This document shows, one piece after another, positions 16,258 to 30,137 of a DNA stretch of 38,977 nt. The DNA is taken from IMG/VR virus record IMGVR_UViG_3300048672_000648, positions 1 to 38,977 of that record; one strand, given 5' to 3'. The DNA comes from a virus. The notes below the pieces were generated by a model. That model had not been told where the DNA came from. It worked only from the letters and a program-made list of their open reading frames with translations, and did no database searches. The position numbers and the translations under genes were made by a program. Each line of letters starts with the position of its first letter. The first letter of the stretch is position 1.

Positions 16258-16815
16258 TTATTTATATTTATATTTTGTTTTATTTTGTTTTCTATAACCA
16301 TTTAATTGTCTTGATAATGTTGATTGATTTATATTTAATATTCTTGCTAATTCAGAACAACTTTCATATATCTCACCAGTTTCTATATTTATAACTTTTT
16401 TTGAATTATGATGATTATTTAATTTAAAATATTCAGTAATAGAATTTTTTATTTTTAATTTTGTTTTTTCTAAATGAATATTTCCTAAATTAACATTTCG
16501 TATTTTTAATTTAGTTTTTTCACTTAATTTACCACTTTTATCATCAGTAGTTGTTAATCTACAATTTAAACCTTTATTTACACAATTATATAAATCCTGA
16601 TAATATCTTTCACGTTCATTTAATTGTTCAATATCACATTCTTCTAATATTTCAAAAGTATGATTAATATAACCATATTTATTTAATGAATTATATAATT
16701 TTCTTTGATATTTACAATCTAAAAATTTATAATCATTAAATCTTTTTTTAATATTAACAGATTGACCAATATAAATTCTATCAATAGGGTTTGTAATTTT
16801 GTAAATTCCAATCAT
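16258..16815 (-). CDS. GIY-YIG homing endonuclease, free-standing
   Basis: 185 aa. The nuclease domain opens IGIYKITNPIDRIYIGQS (GIY...YIG) with the catalytic Arg in IKKRFNDY and a Glu near residue 60. A C-terminal helix-turn-helix-like end (SELARILNINQSTLSRQLNGY) is the NUMOD/IENR type DNA-binding unit typical of these enzymes. It interrupts the amidoligase operon between a cyclotransferase-like gene and an amidotransferase gene, and no intron core flanks it, so it acts as a free-standing mobile gene. Confidence 0.92.
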   Translation of the reverse strand: MIGIYKITNPIDRIYIGQSVNIKKRFNDYKFLDCKYQRKLYNSLNKYGYINHTFEILEECDIEQLNERERYYQDLYNCVNKGLNCRLTTTDDKSGKLSEKTKLKIRNVNLGNIHLEKTKLKIKNSITEYFKLNNHHNSKKVINIETGEIYESCSELARILNINQSTLSRQLNGYRKQNKTKYKYK

Positions 16816-20156: not shown

Positions 20157-21095
20157 TTATTTTCTAATACTTTTTATAAAATTACATACTTTATGTAATT
20201 TTTCACCATCATCTGGTAAAGGTAGTTCTTTAAAATAATTAACTGCACCATCAAAATATAATGGACAAATAGTTCCACCACCGCCTTCTCTTCCTCCTAA
20301 GATTTCGAGGAATCTAATATTATCTTTAAAAAATGTAACATCATAACCATGATAGTCCTGTATCTCATGTCTAAATGGACTAAACAAACCAACAACAACA
20401 TTGGCATCACGTTGAGTTTCTTTATTTCCAGCTAAACCATCTAATGTTGGTTTTAATTTATTATATTTTTTATTTTCAATTGATTCTTGGGCAGCAGCTT
20501 GTTGTTGTATAACGACAGGTATGTATTTGAATCTATTACGAAGTTTAATTAAATAATCTGAACTTAATTTTCCTATTGATTCATGTAATGTCATAGGTAT
20601 TCCTGTATCATAGTTTTTTTCAGGACTAATAAGTCCAATATGATCTATCATTACAATTACATATTCTTCAGGATTATTAGGTTCATAATAATCTTCAACT
20701 TCTATTGCTTTACCATCTATAGTAATAGTTCTATAATGAACTTTACCATTAGCTAAAGCATATTTTCGTACTAAATTGTACATTCCGTAAGGATTTCTTA
20801 CGTCATCAATAAATTCAACAATTTCTTCAATTTTGTTAAAATATTCTTTATATTTTTCTATAATATCTAAAACTTCTTGAGGTAAAATATTATCTGCTTT
20901 TGTACTTTTTAATTGAGTCGGACTCAATCTAATACCTTCTTTAATATATAAAATATTAGAGAATGCTGACAACATCTTTTCTTCTTTAGACATTTCAAGA
21001 CTAAAATAAAAGATTTTTAATTTAATATCTAAATTATTATCTATTACTTGTTGTATTGTGTTGTATAGAAACAACCAATCTGCAATTTGTGTTTT
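20157..21095 (-). CDS. replicative DNA helicase, DnaB-type, exon 2
   Basis: This exon encodes the RecA-like motor from the KT of Walker A onward. Visible motifs: KTQIADWLFLYNTIQQ, FYFSLEMSKEEKM (H1a), VIVMIDHIGLIS (Walker B), VVIQQQAAAQES (H3) and GNKETQRDANVVVGLF (H4). Alone it lacks the P-loop glycines and any ATG. A stop lies four codons before the KT. I place its 5' end at 21095, after the intron's terminal G, because joining it to 23591 gives the P-loop SANSKVG-KT in frame. Spliced product 371 aa. It unwinds DNA at the phage fork. Confidence 0.9.
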   Translation of the reverse strand, partial: KTQIADWLFLYNTIQQVIDNNLDIKLKIFYFSLEMSKEEKMLSAFSNILYIKEGIRLSPTQLKSTKADNILPQEVLDIIEKYKEYFNKIEEIVEFIDDVRNPYGMYNLVRKYALANGKVHYRTITIDGKAIEVEDYYEPNNPEEYVIVMIDHIGLISPEKNYDTGIPMTLHESIGKLSSDYLIKLRNRFKYIPVVIQQQAAAQESIENKKYNKLKPTLDGLAGNKETQRDANVVVGLFSPFRHEIQDYHGYDVTFFKDNIRFLEILGGREGGGGTICPLYFDGAVNYFKELPLPDDGEKLHKVCNFIKSIRK

Positions 21096-21107
21096 CGTTT
21101 GAAATTA

Positions 21108-21563
21108 TCATATTTTACATTGTCCTTTAGAATATCCCATTAATGACATAATGTTATAATAGGTATATTCACCTTTTCCTTTTTTATCAAGTTTTGCATT
21201 ACTAGAGTGATAATTAAATAAATATTTATATTTTTTATCCCATTGATCCTTACCAATGTACATTAACACCCATTTATGAATATCAGGACAAAATAAAAAT
21301 CTTAATTTTGTTGTTTTTACAACTTTTTCTAATTGTTTAGCAAAATGTTTTTTAGAACAATTTGGATAATATGTTTTAATTACAGAATATAAATCTTCAA
21401 AGCTTCTATTACCTCTTCTACATTGTTGATTTTGATAATTTTCATCAAAATAAGTTTTTGTAAAATTGTAAAAATATGAAGTTGTATTTATATCGTAACA
21501 TCTTTTTAAAAACGTAGTTATTCTCTCTCCTTTAATCTTTTCTTTTTCTACGTATAATTTCAT
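21108..21563 (-). CDS. intron-internal phage protein, paralogue of 23054 gene (151 aa)
   Basis: It lies wholly inside the helicase intron and stops 12 bases before the 3' splice site. The core QQCRRGNRSFEDLYSVIKTYYP, followed by a helix and a CP/CxxxxxK strand, is shared with the proteins at 23054 (IQCKSTANRSITDLHKIV) and 25868. No GIY-YIG, HNH or LAGLIDADG motif is visible, so I do not call it a homing endonuclease. Basic N-terminus (KLYVEKEKIKGER). Function unknown. Confidence 0.75.
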   Translation of the reverse strand: MKLYVEKEKIKGERITTFLKRCYDINTTSYFYNFTKTYFDENYQNQQCRRGNRSFEDLYSVIKTYYPNCSKKHFAKQLEKVVKTTKLRFLFCPDIHKWVLMYIGKDQWDKKYKYLFNYHSSNAKLDKKGKGEYTYYNIMSLMGYSKGQCKI

Positions 21564-21589
21564 TTTCTATAATTTAATAATTAAATTTA

Positions 21590-22189
21590 TTATTGGTTTA
21601 TAATACCATACCAAAGTTTAATTTGATTAGTTGAATTAGGATTTAAAAACCATCCACTATCATGTGTAGATAATTCAGTTAATATGTTGTGATAATCTTC
21701 ATTATTATCTACTTGATTAGTAGAACACATCCACATGCCTCTAGAAGTAGAACTTTCTGTAAAATAAGTAAATACTGTTGTAAACAATGCTTTTTTTAAT
21801 TCAATAAAATCATCGTCTTCTATTTCAACAAATTCTTCATTTTCTAAATAATTACATAAATGGTTTATACCTTCAATCCTATTAATTCCACATGAAAAGC
21901 CATTATTAGATTGTAAATTTAATGAAACATTAATTGATTTTTCATTTTCATTAATGTCTACATATCTTAATATTGAACCATTATATGTAATTGAATTAAT
22001 ACAATCTTGTTCTGTTCTAGCAGGTGGTGGTGGTACTACAACCAATTCTTCAAATAATGAAGCATCATATCTTACATTTTTACCAGAATCATTTATAATT
22101 CTTACGTAACCATCTTCTTCACTTAATATTTGGTATTCTTGACCTTCTGTTAATTTATAATTTTTAGCGTTTCTGCAAATTTTGTTCAT
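21590..22189 (-). CDS. intron-internal hypothetical protein (199 aa)
   Basis: It starts about 30 nt after the intron core, inside the helicase intron. The N-terminal ~45 residues (YKLTEGQEYQILSEEDGYVRIIND) look like a small SH3/KOW-type barrel often seen in Bacteroidota phage proteins. A PPPPA linker near residue 54 leads to an acidic second half. No nuclease motif is seen. Being an ordinary-looking phage gene inside an intron is the odd point. Confidence 0.7.
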   Translation of the reverse strand: MNKICRNAKNYKLTEGQEYQILSEEDGYVRIINDSGKNVRYDASLFEELVVVPPPPARTEQDCINSITYNGSILRYVDINENEKSINVSLNLQSNNGFSCGINRIEGINHLCNYLENEEFVEIEDDDFIELKKALFTTVFTYFTESSTSRGMWMCSTNQVDNNEDYHNILTELSTHDSGWFLNPNSTNQIKLWYGIINQ

Positions 22190-22214
22190 TTTTTTCTAAA
22201 TTTAATATTTATAT

Positions 22215-22350
22215 TTATAGTCTAGACTATCTCATCATCCTATAAGGATGTCGGACGCTATGGGCTGATCGTAATCTCCCTAGTCGTTACACCTTCATCA
22301 GTCTTCCCTGAAGCTTGGCACGGTATTGTCTACTTTAATTTCCAAGTTTT
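22215..22350 (-). ncRNA. group I intron catalytic core of the helicase intron
   Basis: Reading the minus strand, P-like CTTGGAAA (within the last codons of the 22330 gene) pairs with Q-like GTGCCAAG. R is GTGTAACGACTAGGG and S is GAGATAGTCTAG; GACTA/TAGTC make a perfect P7. Between R and S, a hairpin CATCCTTATAGGATG occupies the P8 position. The identical 15-nt hairpin occurs in the polymerase intron, where it precedes R. These elements support an active core despite the ORFs on either side. Confidence 0.85.
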
Positions 22351-23004
22351 TAACAAATATCTTTCAGCTTTTTTAAAATCTTTAGTTTTTAAGATATTAA
22401 ATAATTCTGTTTTTTCTTTAACCAAATCAATTTTAGATTGTTCAAAAATACAAGAATAATATATTTCTTTTGAATCAATACTAAAAATACATTCTTTTAA
22501 TGTTTTATATGGTTTATTTAAAACATGAATTTCTTTACTAAAATCATTATGTTTTTTACACCATATCATATCTCTAGGTCCATAATAATATGGAATATTA
22601 TTATGTAAACTATTAACATGACTATAATAATGACCTAATATAAAAGCATTTTGAATTCTAACACCAGATTTATTAATTAAAATAATATTTTCTAATATTT
22701 TTTTAATACTTGCTGTTCTAACAAATCTACAAAGTCTAAAACAAAATATTTGTCTTCTTTCTGTTGTATTTTCAAATTCAAAACTTTTTTCAGTTATGTT
22801 TGTAATAACAGTTCCTAATCTAAATCTTTTAATAATATCAATTAATAATATTACATCTGATTTATCATGTGATTCAAATTTATGTTTTAAACCATTTTTA
22901 TAACTATCACCACAACCATATGATTCAATATTATATCTTACTTCTAAAGTACCTATATAATTATTACCACTAATATTTTTTAATTTTGTTAAATATTTAC
23001 TCAT
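22330..23004 (-). CDS. intron-internal hypothetical protein (224 aa)
   Basis: It sits between the intron guide sequence and the catalytic core, and its last codons overlap the P element, as homing genes often do. Sequence is basic, with several Cys/His (FCFRLCRF, WCKKHNDF) but no standard endonuclease signature. It might be a novel or degenerate intron-associated nuclease, or an ordinary phage gene. I cannot decide from sequence alone. Confidence 0.65.
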   Translation of the reverse strand: MSKYLTKLKNISGNNYIGTLEVRYNIESYGCGDSYKNGLKHKFESHDKSDVILLIDIIKRFRLGTVITNITEKSFEFENTTERRQIFCFRLCRFVRTASIKKILENIILINKSGVRIQNAFILGHYYSHVNSLHNNIPYYYGPRDMIWCKKHNDFSKEIHVLNKPYKTLKECIFSIDSKEIYYSCIFEQSKIDLVKEKTELFNILKTKDFKKAERYLLKTWKLK

Positions 23005-23053
23005 TTTTTTAAATAGATTTTCACCGTTTTCATCCGATTTAATAATAATTTTT

Positions 23054-23482
23054 TCATAATTTATTCATCATTTCTTCATAATCTGCTAAAGAATAACCAT
23101 CTACACCTTTTTTAGTATAATAGTGTTCTTTACTATGATTACTTATCCAACTTGCTGCTTTATTGTTAACAAACTTAATTACAGGTTTGTTAATTTGTGT
23201 GCACCATACTAAAATAATAGATTTGTCTTCTTCCATAAATTGTTTAACAATTCTAACAACCGCTTCAAAAGTTGTTTTTGGAAATCTAGACATAACTATT
23301 TTATGTAAATCTGTAATACTTCTATTAGCTGTTGATTTACATTGTATTTCTGTACAAGCTTCATTTGAATATGTAATGTAAGCTTTACCTCTTAAAAAAT
23401 ATCTAACAAATTGTTTTCTATTAGTTGTTTGAGGTACATCATTTAAAGAAACATAAATAATTTCTTGATTATTTTGGTTCAT
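23054..23482 (-). CDS. intron-internal phage protein, paralogue of 21108 gene (142 aa)
   Basis: First ORF inside the helicase intron. The segment IQCKSTANRSITDLHKIVMS plus RFP aligns with QCRRGNRSFEDLYSVIKTYYP of the 21108 protein, and a similar CPxxxK/CTQINKPVIKF strand follows. It ends with a helical tail (SLADYEEMMNKL). The repeated NRS-x2-DL motif may mark a family of phage accessory proteins. No enzyme motif recognised. Confidence 0.75.
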   Translation of the reverse strand: MNQNNQEIIYVSLNDVPQTTNRKQFVRYFLRGKAYITYSNEACTEIQCKSTANRSITDLHKIVMSRFPKTTFEAVVRIVKQFMEEDKSIILVWCTQINKPVIKFVNNKAASWISNHSKEHYYTKKGVDGYSLADYEEMMNKL

Positions 23483-23590
23483 TTTTTTTAATTTTTTCTA
23501 ATTTGTAAAATTACTATTTTTACATCTAAATATTACTATTTAGCTGGGCAAAACACTCATACGTAAATAACGTATGTCAAATTTATAATT

Positions 23591-23767
23591 ACCCACTTTT
23601 GAATTTGCCGATACTAGGTAGTATTTACCTTGTTCAATACCAGGGTTTTCCTCTTCAAATCGAGGTAAACTCCACGGAATACAATTTATTTTACCTGATA
23701 AAATTCTATCACGTCGTTCTACTAGAGTACCAAATACTCTATCATATAAACTATTTTGTTCTGTCAT
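23591..23767 (-). CDS. replicative DNA helicase, DnaB-type, exon 1
   Basis: 59 codons from ATG 23767 to the splice site. The product ends GKYYLVSANSKVG, the strand and first half of Walker A; unspliced translation runs on for 16 residues to a stop at 23540. There is only a short helical region before the motor (LYDRVFGTLVERRDRI), so the helicase lacks the primase-binding N-terminal domain of bacterial DnaB. Four bases separate it from the stop of the upstream gene. Confidence 0.88.
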
Positions 23768-25687: not shown

Positions 25688-25878
25688 TACCAATCTTCAT
25701 TAGTTTCAAAATTATCTTCATTCATCGCAAATATAAAATCATCTGCAATTTGTGAATCAACACTACCGTTACCATTACATAAATTACATTTTTTATATTC
25801 AAAACCTTTAGTTTGTTTTGGAACCATTATTTCTTTAATACCAAGACATTGAGGACATTCTGTTAAATTATTGTTCAT
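25687..25878 (-). CDS. DnaJ-type zinc finger protein (63 aa)
   Basis: Two CxxC pairs, CPQCLG and CNLCNGNG, match half of a DnaJ central zinc-finger domain (CxxCxGxG). The acidic tail ends NFETNEDW. Small proteins of this kind are common in Bacteroidota phages and of unknown target. It overlaps both neighbours. Confidence 0.75.
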   Translation of the reverse strand: MNNNLTECPQCLGIKEIMVPKQTKGFEYKKCNLCNGNGSVDSQIADDFIFAMNEDNFETNEDW

Positions 25879-26758
25879 CTTCTATATATTTTTTAAGATC
25901 GTTAAATGTTAATTCATCTGCGAATTCTAATGTATGATTAAAACTATTATGTGGTGATACATTTGGTGTATAAAATACATATTTATTTACTGTTGAACAA
26001 TAAGAACTACATATAACACCAATTTTTAATAAAGATAAAATTGTTTTAATAATATCTAAAAATGTTACTTCAGAATAATAATATTTAGTAATTAAATAAA
26101 TATCATGTAAACTTCTTCTACGATTTACATCACAAATTTGTTGATGATATATATCTATAGTATTACATTCATTATTATAAGTTTTAAAAAATTCAATAAT
26201 AAAATCTTCAAATTTAGAATGTTTTGAATTTATAAATTCTTTAGTTAATAATTCTTTTTTTTCAATTTTATTATAATGACGTTTATATCTATTACTAGGA
26301 AATCTTGAAAAAGGTAAAGGATCAGGTAACCACATTCCTTGTTGAATACCACCTTGATAACCAACATTTACACCAGGTAATTGTCCAACTTTAGGTTTTT
26401 CCTCATATATTATTTGTTGTAACATATATGGTGATACTTTATTTAATCCTGTTTGATAATAATCAATCCAATTTTTAATATTAGTTTTAAGTTCTAAAGC
26501 TTTTTTAATAGCTTCTTTTTTAGCTATTTTTTCAGCATTTAAATAATAATATAAATCATAAGAATCTTTAAAAATACCTAAAAAGAATGTAGTAATAGAA
26601 AGTATAGGTGTCAATAATAAAAATATTCCAACAAATATCGCCGTAACTATATTTACAATAGATGTAAACATTAAACTTTTTTTACAAATTTCATATTCAA
26701 CTACTGGCGATTCTTTTTGAATTTTATGTAATTCTTTATACAACCATGTTTTTTTCAT
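25868..26758 (-). CDS. membrane protein with C-terminal NRS-DL domain
   Basis: 296 aa. Residues 30-65 form one or two membrane helices (SIVNIVTAIFVGIFLLLTPI and following). A helical charged linker follows. The C-terminal ~110 residues contain ICDVNRRRSLHDIYLITK, then a strand with CSTVNKYVFYTP, the same arrangement as the intron-internal proteins at 21108 and 23054. So a soluble accessory domain is here fused to a membrane anchor. Function unknown. Confidence 0.75.
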   Translation of the reverse strand: MKKTWLYKELHKIQKESPVVEYEICKKSLMFTSIVNIVTAIFVGIFLLLTPILSITTFFLGIFKDSYDLYYYLNAEKIAKKEAIKKALELKTNIKNWIDYYQTGLNKVSPYMLQQIIYEEKPKVGQLPGVNVGYQGGIQQGMWLPDPLPFSRFPSNRYKRHYNKIEKKELLTKEFINSKHSKFEDFIIEFFKTYNNECNTIDIYHQQICDVNRRRSLHDIYLITKYYYSEVTFLDIIKTILSLLKIGVICSSYCSTVNKYVFYTPNVSPHNSFNHTLEFADELTFNDLKKYIEDEQ

Positions 26759-27245: not shown

Positions 27246-28144
27246 TTAAAATAATGTTAGTTGATTAAAATTGTTTATTTCATCAATAATCTTTTGTGTT
27301 GCAGATATATAATAATTATAATTAATATTATATTCTTCCCATGATTGTTGTTGATGATTATTATGTAAGGTTACAGCTTGACCAACATTTACATGTTGCA
27401 TTGTACCTTGACCATGTTTTTGTTTAAATAAATAAGCACCTTTTTTATTAAAATAATATCTATTTAATTGTTGTTGAATTTCTCCATTCCAATACACTTT
27501 AAAATCTTTACCAATCTTATTACTTTTACAATAATCATAAATATGTAAATCATATTTATCAGGATTAGATATAAATTCTCTAGGTGAAATATCTTTAGTA
27601 TAATAAGCTTCTAAAGCTTTTGCAATTACTAATTCATCTACGGAATTACCTAATAATGGTTTAGGAACAAACAATCCTTTTTGTTTATATTTACCATCTT
27701 GAGTTATCGCTATATAATTATTTACATTTTTATAAATAATTTTAGAATAGTTTTCATGTTCTAAATCTAAATTAAAAGATTTACATGTTTCATCTAATAA
27801 AAATTCATATTTCTTTAAATCAGTTTTAGGTACAAGTACTTCAATTCCATCTGTATTAGCACTAACTACTTGCCAATTATTCAATAAACATACTTCAATA
27901 CATTTTGTTAAAATTAATTGACCAATAATTCTTAATTTCATTGCTCCTTCAGGATAATATAACCAAGAATGTTCATTATCAAGTAAACCTGATGTTGAAT
28001 TTAAAATAAGTTTAAGAAAAGTATCTTTAGATTTATTTTTCTCTTTTTTAGCAACTAATCTTTCAGTTTTAACTTGTTTGTATTTATCTAATACTTCAGG
28101 ATATCTAATACATAAATAATTTATAATTAGATTTGGGTATAGTG
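27246..28144 (-). CDS. family B DNA polymerase, exon 2
   Basis: Begins in the middle of motif A: after splicing the sequence reads DVA-S-LYPNLIINY. It then shows motif B KLILNSTSGLL and motif C SANTDGIEVLV with the catalytic DTD-like Asp pair in TDG. The ATG at 27941 used by simple ORF calling is internal. With exon 1 the total is 1,887 nt, 628 aa, a short family B enzyme. It would replicate the phage genome with the helicase and primase encoded nearby. Confidence 0.92.
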
Positions 28145-29149
28145 CTATACCCTTAATCTAGTATGTCTCCATCTAGTTGGACTATATCATCTTTTAAAAT
28201 TTTTATCCAGCGATAACCGTACATTGTTGGTTTTGAACCACTACAGACTGAATAAATATTGTGTGTTTTATATGTAGGATTTTCGTTAATAATATCTTTA
28301 ACTTTATTCCAGGTTTTAATTAATGTTTTACCATCTTTAGAGTATTGTTCAATAATATATTTTGTCATTGAATCTGATACTTTTTTTCTCATAATTTTAA
28401 CAGCTTCTGGGTTATTTTTCCAATAATTTGAAGCAGCTAAACCTGTTTTAAGTCTTTGATTAGGATCTTTATATCTTTTATACAAAGCTTTACTATATTT
28501 TTTTCGAGTTTCTTCATGTACAATCATTTTTGTACTAGAATCTCTTCTTAAATTATATCCTTTATCTCTATTATAAGACATATAATAATCCATCCAAAAT
28601 AATTCTTTATCTTTAAAAATATTTTCAATATTTTCTTGATTTTTATCTATTATTTCTAAAATAAAATATTCAAAGTTTTCTTTACCATATTTCCACCAAG
28701 CATTTATAAAATGTTGATTTTCACTTTTAATATTTTTTGAATTTAAATTTGAAATATGATTCCAAATTCTTTGTCTTATATTTATAGATTTTCCTATATA
28801 TACTTTTTGATTTATTGTATTCCTAATACAATAAATACCACACACATTTTCATGTAATTTTAATGTTTTCATAAATAATTATATTTTATACAAATATAAT
28901 CAATTTTATGGTAATATCTTAATTATTTAGGATAAATTTTATAACATTTAAAATTATTTTAAAAGTTCCCTGTTTAGTCTCTGAACCTTCATCCTATAAG
29001 GATGCTTGGCTGCGGATTGACCAATCTTTATCTTTTTTACTATACTGAGGGAATTATTCTCACCACATAATATATTACTATTTATGTTTAGTAGATAAAG
29101 CTCTAAGGTTATTCCCGTCAATTTAAGGAATTTTAGTTACGCCACTTTA
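28145..29149 (-). other. group I intron in DNA polymerase motif A, carrying a homing endonuclease
   Basis: 1,005 nt. The exon ends in T (29150) and the intron ends in G (28145). P1: exon GTTGCGT pairs with intron GCGTAAC over 7 bp with U-G at the splice site. P10: guide AGTG pairs with 3' exon CACT. The core elements are classical: P AATTGACGGGAA, Q AATCCGCAGCCAAG, R GTTCAGAGACTA, S GATATAGTCC, with GACTA/TAGTC as P7. S lies inside the 3' end of the endonuclease gene. Joining exons restores DVASLYPN. Confidence 0.93.
28153..28872 (-). CDS. GIY-YIG homing endonuclease, intron-encoded
   Basis: 239 aa. Nuclease domain: VCGIYCIRNTINQKVYIGKS (GIY...YIG), catalytic Arg in IRQRIWNH and Glu in the ELFWMDYY region. 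A middle basic segment (TRKKYSKALYKRYKDPNQRL) is a NUMOD-like DNA-binding repeat, and the C-terminus ends YGYRWIKIL. The last ~20 codons also encode the intron S element, so gene and ribozyme share sequence. It would cut intron-less polymerase genes to spread the intron. Stop lies 8 nt before the splice site. Confidence 0.94.
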   Translation of the reverse strand: MKTLKLHENVCGIYCIRNTINQKVYIGKSINIRQRIWNHISNLNSKNIKSENQHFINAWWKYGKENFEYFILEIIDKNQENIENIFKDKELFWMDYYMSYNRDKGYNLRRDSSTKMIVHEETRKKYSKALYKRYKDPNQRLKTGLAASNYWKNNPEAVKIMRKKVSDSMTKYIIEQYSKDGKTLIKTWNKVKDIINENPTYKTHNIYSVCSGSKPTMYGYRWIKILKDDIVQLDGDILD

Positions 29150-30137
29150 ACGCAACATCTGATGTTTTAATTTGTATTAAATCATCTGTATAATAACACT
29201 CATTGTTATTAACACTATGTAGTCCACCAATACCATAAGATAATTTAATAGAAGTATTATTATGATTTACAATTAAATCTTGACTAAAACTATTTGTTGA
29301 ATTACAAACATCTGACCATAATTTTTGAAATATAGGTAATTTAAAATCAGGATTAAAATTTTTTAATAACTCACCTAAATATAATACAGGTTTTTCAAAT
29401 CGTTGTTTTCTGACCTCATTTACATTTTTACGAGTAATTCTACAATAATCTTGCAATAATGCTTCAGAAGCAATCTTAGGGGCATCCCATGACCAACAAT
29501 CAAGTTTATAATCTTTATTAATATTAGCTCGAAGTTTTATTTCTTCTTCCATTTTACTACATAACAATTCAGTAATAGTTAAATCATGTACTGTATTATA
29601 TGTACGAAGTTTTGGTAAATCTTCTAAAGTTAATATACTATCAGGTTTATATGGTAATTCTTGAACTACATCATAACCTAATTGTATTGCTAAAGATTTT
29701 AAACTAATTTTTTTAGATATTCTTAACATTTTAGACCAATAACAAAATAAATCAATATCTGTCCAATTTGTTTTAAACCATTTTAATTTAGATATTTCAT
29801 CATCATAAATATCTCCAATAATTTTATCTGATAAATATTTTAATTCACCACATATATTTTCATATTGTAAATCTTTAAGATTTTGATAATTCATTAAAAT
29901 ATACTTAATAACTAAATTATCATAATGAATTCCGTTAAAAGTTATTAAAAAACCATTATATGTTTTAAAATAATTATAAACTTTATGAATATCATTTTGT
30001 TGTTCACTTATTTCATAATAAGTAATTTGTTTTGTAGTATAATTTTTTATACCAACACAAAAAAAGTTAGTATAAACTTCTATATCCATTACTATTTTTC
30101 CTTCATTCATCCATATATTTAATTTAAAGTGAGTCAT
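29150..30137 (-). CDS. family B DNA polymerase, exon 1 (3'-5' exonuclease region)
   Basis: 329 codons plus one base. It encodes the proofreading domain: ExoI VMDIEVYTNFF near residue 17 (D-x-E), ExoII FNGIHYDNLV near 68, and ExoIII YNTVHDLTITELL near 185 (YxxxD). The end reads KTSDVA, the start of polymerase motif A, where the intron interrupts. Unspliced translation stops five codons on. The start may be the Met at residue 1, 10 or 17; I keep the first. Confidence 0.92.

Follow-up and report, generated by a model that had tools for sequence, protein, structure and literature searches.

The stretch of DNA analysed here, a 38,977-base IMG/VR entry (IMGVR_UViG_3300048672_000648; the whole stretch is called the window below), belongs to a phage of the Crassvirales and carries on its minus strand a replicative helicase gene in two pieces, separated by a putative group I intron that contains several small genes. 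Judged by the helicase, the closest named genome is that of Cellulophaga phage phi14:2 (Steigviridae, Asinivirinae; 52% identity), and the virus family concerned infects Bacteroidetes bacteria. The first exon (23591-23767, minus strand) encodes 59 aa and ends with SANSKVG, and the second (20157-21095, minus strand) encodes 312 aa, begins with KTQIADW and matched the phrog_19 DnaB-like helicase profile at 2e-8. The 2,495 nt between them (21096-23590, minus strand) end with a G, the omega-G, and the insertion point follows the G of GKT in the P-loop. Removal of 21096-23590 joined the exons in frame into a 371-aa product with SANSKVGKTQIADW restored, bearing out the exact repair of the P-loop that a preliminary description of this DNA had predicted. 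That description had also raised the case of a related phage with a separate, complete helicase elsewhere; none was found in 12 records carrying the split, including the complete phi14:2 genome, and each of them had one helicase.

The four open reading frames (ORFs) announced in the preliminary description were all present within the intron, on the minus strand and in peripheral positions of the ribozyme. ORF1 (23054-23482, 142 aa, with a predicted winged-helix-like fold) is placed in J2/3, between P2 and P3, ORF2 (22330-23004, 224 aa) in the P5 loop, and both ORF3 (21590-22189, 199 aa) and ORF4 (21108-21563, 151 aa, a paralogue of ORF1) after P7'. Of the earlier positions, that of ORF2 had to be corrected: it had been assigned to the region between guide and core, but with the P3, P4 and P5 5' strands (23037-23014) upstream of it, it lies inside the core. 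Searches of Pfam, PHROGs and PADLOC gave no nuclease family match for any of the four, in agreement with the earlier statement that none has a standard endonuclease motif. The evidence presented below suggests, with a probability that we estimate at about 0.87, that the locus is a cis-splicing group I ribozyme in the helicase gene, the peripheral regions of which hold small phage genes.

Ribozyme core and internal guide

The 12-base internal guide GTGTTTTGCCCA (23545-23556, minus strand) is composed of GTGTTTT, assigned to P10, and GCCCA, assigned to P1; it occurs once in the window, where 0.08 matches were expected with up to one mismatch. In P1 the guide pairs over 5 bp with TGGGT of the 5' exon, with a U.G pair at the splice site, and the intron terminates in G at its other end. 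Among the related records compared (designated by L numbers), L006 showed a compensatory change in P1, from GGG in the exon and CCC in the guide to TGG and CCA. The P2 hairpin CTAAATAGTAATATTTAG (23526-23543, minus strand) is 100% paired, with one compensatory pair, and is followed by the 5' strands of P3 (23031-23037), P4 (23022-23027) and P5 (23014-23017), which together span 23014-23037 on the minus strand. The remaining core (22225-22332, minus strand) comprises P5', P4' (22320-22325), P6, P7 (22281-22285), P3' (22251-22257), P8 (22236-22250) and P7' (22225-22229). The perfect P7 claimed previously was confirmed, 22281-22285 being paired with 22225-22229.

A homologous intron of just 761 nt, inserted at the same codon in L007 and with a contiguous core, matched the Rfam group I model (RF00028) with 67.1 bits (E 1e-16) at positions 1-253, and the core of the window could be aligned with it base for base. 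Pairing was counted in seven homologous introns from which the ORFs had been trimmed, over a named structure consisting of P1, P2, P3, P4, P5, P6, P6a, P7, P8 and P10. Standard pairs were found in 96.5% of the cells, compared to 34-49% with one strand slid, and both sides had changed at nine pairs, with compensatory changes located in P1, P2, P3, P5, P6a, P8 and P10. The covariation score was reached by none of 500 shuffles, although relatedness inflates such scores. The L007 match, the alignment and the pair count all point to a conserved P3-P8 core with its P7. On the sequence evidence of the L007 match, the compensatory pairs, the omega-G and the exact junction, the segment 21096-23590 is a group I intron, as the preliminary description had held.

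The same intron splits the helicase of phi14:2 (NC_021806, L084:1217-4942), a cultured phage with a complete genome whose arrangement had escaped the preliminary description and in which the pieces are annotated as separate genes, g024-g029. The insert measures about 2.6 kb. Gene g024 (64 aa, annotated as hypothetical) is helicase exon 1, g026 and g028 are homologues of ORF2 (2e-16) and ORF3 (6e-30), g027 extends across the ribozyme core, and the annotation of g029 as DnaB starts at an internal ATG, 99 nt downstream of the point where homology begins. The site, the intron type and the order of the ORF2 and ORF3 homologues are those of the window, whereas ORF1 and ORF4 are absent and g025 is present. 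Its guide, GATTT-GCCC, fits AAATC in the 3' exon and GGGT in the 5' exon, and comparison with the window (GTTTT, AAAAC) revealed one P10 pair changed on both sides, a single compensatory case. Splicing of g024 to g029 would be expected to create the junction GTGGGT followed directly by AAATCACAA.

Genes inside and beside the helicase

The comparison with related phages lacking the insertion, which the preliminary description had proposed, revealed an uninterrupted helicase (an empty site) in about half of the relatives. The helicase tree contained 35 split and 42 whole rows (77 in total, four of them labelled 'split' by hand, their contigs starting inside the insert), and the splits were mostly at the codon interrupted in the window. 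In L002, L003 and L006 another group I-like insert, with a GIY-YIG gene, is located three codons further upstream, so that an exon of 9 nt, AAAGTGGGT (K V G), remains between the two; in these double P-loop introns (L002:896-1860, L003:828-1880 and L006:2903-3960) the first one, which has the GIY-YIG gene, could co-convert the second. In L030, L050, L058 and L075 the break in the P-loop is slightly displaced. Interruption of this loop, considered unusual in the preliminary description, is thus not unusual in itself, since the loop is a repeated target of different introns in these phages. The helicase frame of Kehishuvirus cr112_1 (L086:1629-3547) is also broken at the same P-loop place, with a homing endonuclease gene directly upstream, probably by an unannotated intron. 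Other LAGLIDADG or GIY-YIG inserts were seen in the helicase genes of L047, L048, L049, L054, L066 and L072, near residues 110, 164, 262 and 283.

The usual gene order in intron-less relatives is UP194 - ORF1 - (ORF3) - (ORF4 family) - helicase - MWET - RecA-like, with UP194 and MWET as our own names for two genes near the helicase. The order in the window is UP194 - exon 1 - [ORF1 - ORF2 - core - ORF3 - ORF4] - exon 2 - RecA-like. In relatives with an uninterrupted helicase, ORF1, ORF3 and ORF4 have homologues that stand free next to this gene, the orthologues of ORF1 being directly upstream of it in those that lack the intron. L063 (exon 1 - [ORF1 - core - ORF3 - ORF4] - exon 2) may be compared with L017 (ORF1 - ORF3 - ORF4 - whole helicase). 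Among 18 long records, full-length ORF3 was single copy per genome and took either one position or the other, lying in the intron in L004, L014, L030, L063 and L064 and beside the helicase in L017, L033, L043, L045 and L058; weaker, remote matches were found in four other records. Because the homologues of ORF1, ORF3 and ORF4 stand free beside whole helicases, the earlier idea of the intron as a container for ordinary phage genes was strengthened for these three, and ORF2, encountered only in this intron, is a possible exception.

The ORF insertions could also be delimited structurally. In L003, L007 and L063, which have no ORF2, the P5 loop is a short hairpin closed by few bases, and relative to these records ORF2 in the P5 loop and ORF1 in J2/3 are clean insertions; the L007 intron lacks ORF1 and ORF3 as well. 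ORF1 and ORF4 are paralogous to each other (E 8e-7) and belong to a large family that is represented several times in each phage, both within introns and outside them; one further region of the window itself (25868-26758) is part of it. The model of ORF1 reached a predicted local distance difference test (pLDDT) value of 90, its best matches, weak ones, being winged-helix regulators, and ORF3 has an SH3/KOW-like start and a weak GNAT-like similarity. A PDB sequence search with the ORF1/ORF4 and ORF3 profiles gave no match, and neither did tblastn of ORF1 in phages. ORF1, ORF3 and ORF4 are under purifying selection, with pairwise ratios of non-synonymous to synonymous substitution (dN/dS) of about 0.14-0.53. 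The possibility that ORF1/ORF4 constitute a new endonuclease family was discarded, given that free-standing copies are common and that the model is winged-helix-like, though weakly. The idea that ORF2 is a relocated MWET gene was likewise rejected, the profile comparison not being significant.

Since most of these genes have homologues beside the helicase in relatives, they appear to have switched between the 'beside' and 'inside' positions. One direction for this exchange, compatible with the ribozyme interpretation, is that the gene-bearing intron is ancestral here and that the 'beside' state arose by exchange of the split helicase for a whole one, with the genes left behind upstream, a hypothesis that we place slightly below even odds. 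The order ORF1-ORF3-ORF4 is identical outside and inside, phi14:2 and a number of rows that branch early carry ORF3 or other cargo in the intron, and once phi14:2 and other Steigviridae were added the deepest cargo-bearing rows were inside, which favours 'inside' as the older state. On the other hand, no significant remnant of ribozyme or exon 1 was detected upstream of whole helicases, the support of deep nodes is weak to modest and branches are long, the tree requires a minimum of 8-12 changes of the split label, and repeated capture is equally possible.

A second intron lineage (L021, L023, L027, L028, L037, L067, L070 and L072) carries other cargo, including MWET, which elsewhere lies downstream of the helicase. 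In L023, L028 and L072 LAGLIDADG genes accompany the cargo, and introns of this type may have been mobile with passengers aboard. A further observation on the second lineage (L016, L021, L023, L026-L029, L031, L038, L047, L048, L064, L067 and L072) is that its core is read as protein (NPVPS...NGVETNKEQP) near GACAATCCCGTGCC. The spacing of its P6 loop was a multiple of three in all 15 distinct introns and open in 14 of them, and the core frame usually stops just before the P7 strand, where that strand could be located.

Elsewhere in the window, the DNA polymerase B gene (27246-30137, minus strand) is also interrupted: its exon 1 stops near KTSDVA, its exon 2 takes up again near LYPN, and the insert has a GIY-YIG endonuclease gene at 28153-28872. 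A GIY-YIG/NUMOD1 homing endonuclease gene (16258-16815) lies between two unrelated genes.

Alternatives, precedents and significance

In the proposed mechanism, the primary transcript would span both exons and the intron between them; the guide would pair with both exon ends, and the ribozyme would excise the 2,495 nt and restore the helicase mRNA. The peripheral regions (J2/3, the P5 loop and the part that follows P7') would serve as permitted insertion sites for small phage genes, and these passengers, which are not recognisable as homing endonucleases and would have no part in building the ribozyme, would be translated from the unspliced precursor or from the excised intron.

Several results weigh against this interpretation. 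The covariance-model check suggested in the preliminary description gave no RF00028 match in the window, at the gathering threshold or at E values up to 5, in contrast to the contiguous core of L007. The window presumably misses the match because the 429-nt and 675-nt inserts (ORF1 and ORF2) break the core, and it should be considered that such a match is a criterion of detection, not a defining trait of group I introns. The guide pairs with both exon ends in the window, as previously claimed, P10 with AAAACAC of the 3' exon over 7 bp, but this length is a property of the window (3-6 bp in relatives), and across about 20 introns P10 was no longer with its own partner than with swapped ones (4.2 against 4.0; L004 was misparsed at a wrong site). 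Own and swapped partners being alike, P10 covariation over all introns was uninformative as support; P10 by itself is therefore weak evidence and adds little outside the clade of the window. Finally, the pairwise dN/dS of ORF2 is near 1, yet its frame is intact over large distances, and its homologues were found only in the intron at this helicase codon (in the window, L002, L004, L006/L014, L064 and phi14:2).

Together with the dN/dS near 1, this distribution suggests that ORF2 may not be cargo; of the four ORFs, it alone could encode a protein that belongs to the intron itself. The distribution also underlies a doubtful alternative, namely a conventional mobile intron in which at least one of the four proteins, with ORF2 as the best candidate, acts as a homing endonuclease not described so far or as a splicing cofactor. 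ORF2 homologues are always sited between the guide and P4', and other introns at the same codon have LAGLIDADG enzymes beside their cargo (L023, L028 and L072). The lack of nuclease matches in Pfam, PHROGs and PADLOC argues against it, as do the free-standing homologues of ORF1/ORF4 and ORF3, with their weakly winged-helix and SH3/GNAT-like models, and the persistence of the intron without ORF2 in L003, L007 and L063. That there is no splicing at all, the helicase being two separately translated polypeptides that assemble, is highly improbable: each piece is an open frame and the RefSeq annotation of phi14:2 treats the two as separate, but the break lies within the P-loop, no start codon is present where the conserved part of exon 2 begins, and conserved ribozyme pairs with compensatory changes and the omega-G are found exactly at the junctions.

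Phage introns are commonly portrayed as selfish elements that carry a homing endonuclease at most, and those of the T4 td, SPO1, Twort and Bastille type typically carry an endonuclease only. The window shares with them a group I core, peripheral-loop ORFs and a conserved phage gene as host, and differs by its four ORFs and the absence of a recognised endonuclease. According to a review of bacterial group I introns, the ORFs they contain are homing endonucleases, which mostly occupy loops (PMC3984707). In a survey of crAss-like phages, which belong to the same virus order and also have introns in core genes, the introns were detected via endonuclease domains (PMC7886860), so that introns devoid of endonuclease would escape a survey of this kind. 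No description of gene-filled phage introns was found in the literature searched, subscription papers left out, and one precedent for gene-filled group I introns was found, the hexacoral mitochondrial ND5-717 intron, which holds 2-15 ordinary genes in P8 (PMC8146996, PMC6545197). Both are group I ribozymes in a protein gene that hold non-endonuclease genes of their own genome, but in ND5-717 all the genes are in P8, and it is obligatory, vertically inherited and capable of back-splicing (PMC6545197, PMC8146996). The phage intron has its ordinary genes in other peripheral segments (J2/3, L5 and after P7') and none in P8, and its contents vary between relatives. Anatomically a group I intron, it would work as a gene holder like ND5-717 but comes from a different lineage.

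A gene-loaded intron without an endonuclease escapes surveys guided by that enzyme and splits gene calls, as happened in phi14:2. The intron can be viewed as a phage counterpart of the hexacoral ND5 intron, and its relatives constitute a natural before-and-after set for gene entry and exit. More speculatively, and with considerable reservation, the ribozyme might be a standing gene slot which passengers enter, leave and spread with, and translation of passengers through or up to the core might compete with splicing, thereby coupling passenger expression and helicase supply. Being laboratory-grown, phi14:2 is a testable model for a gene-filled intron and a cultured system in which to test whether the passengers control production of the replicative helicase.

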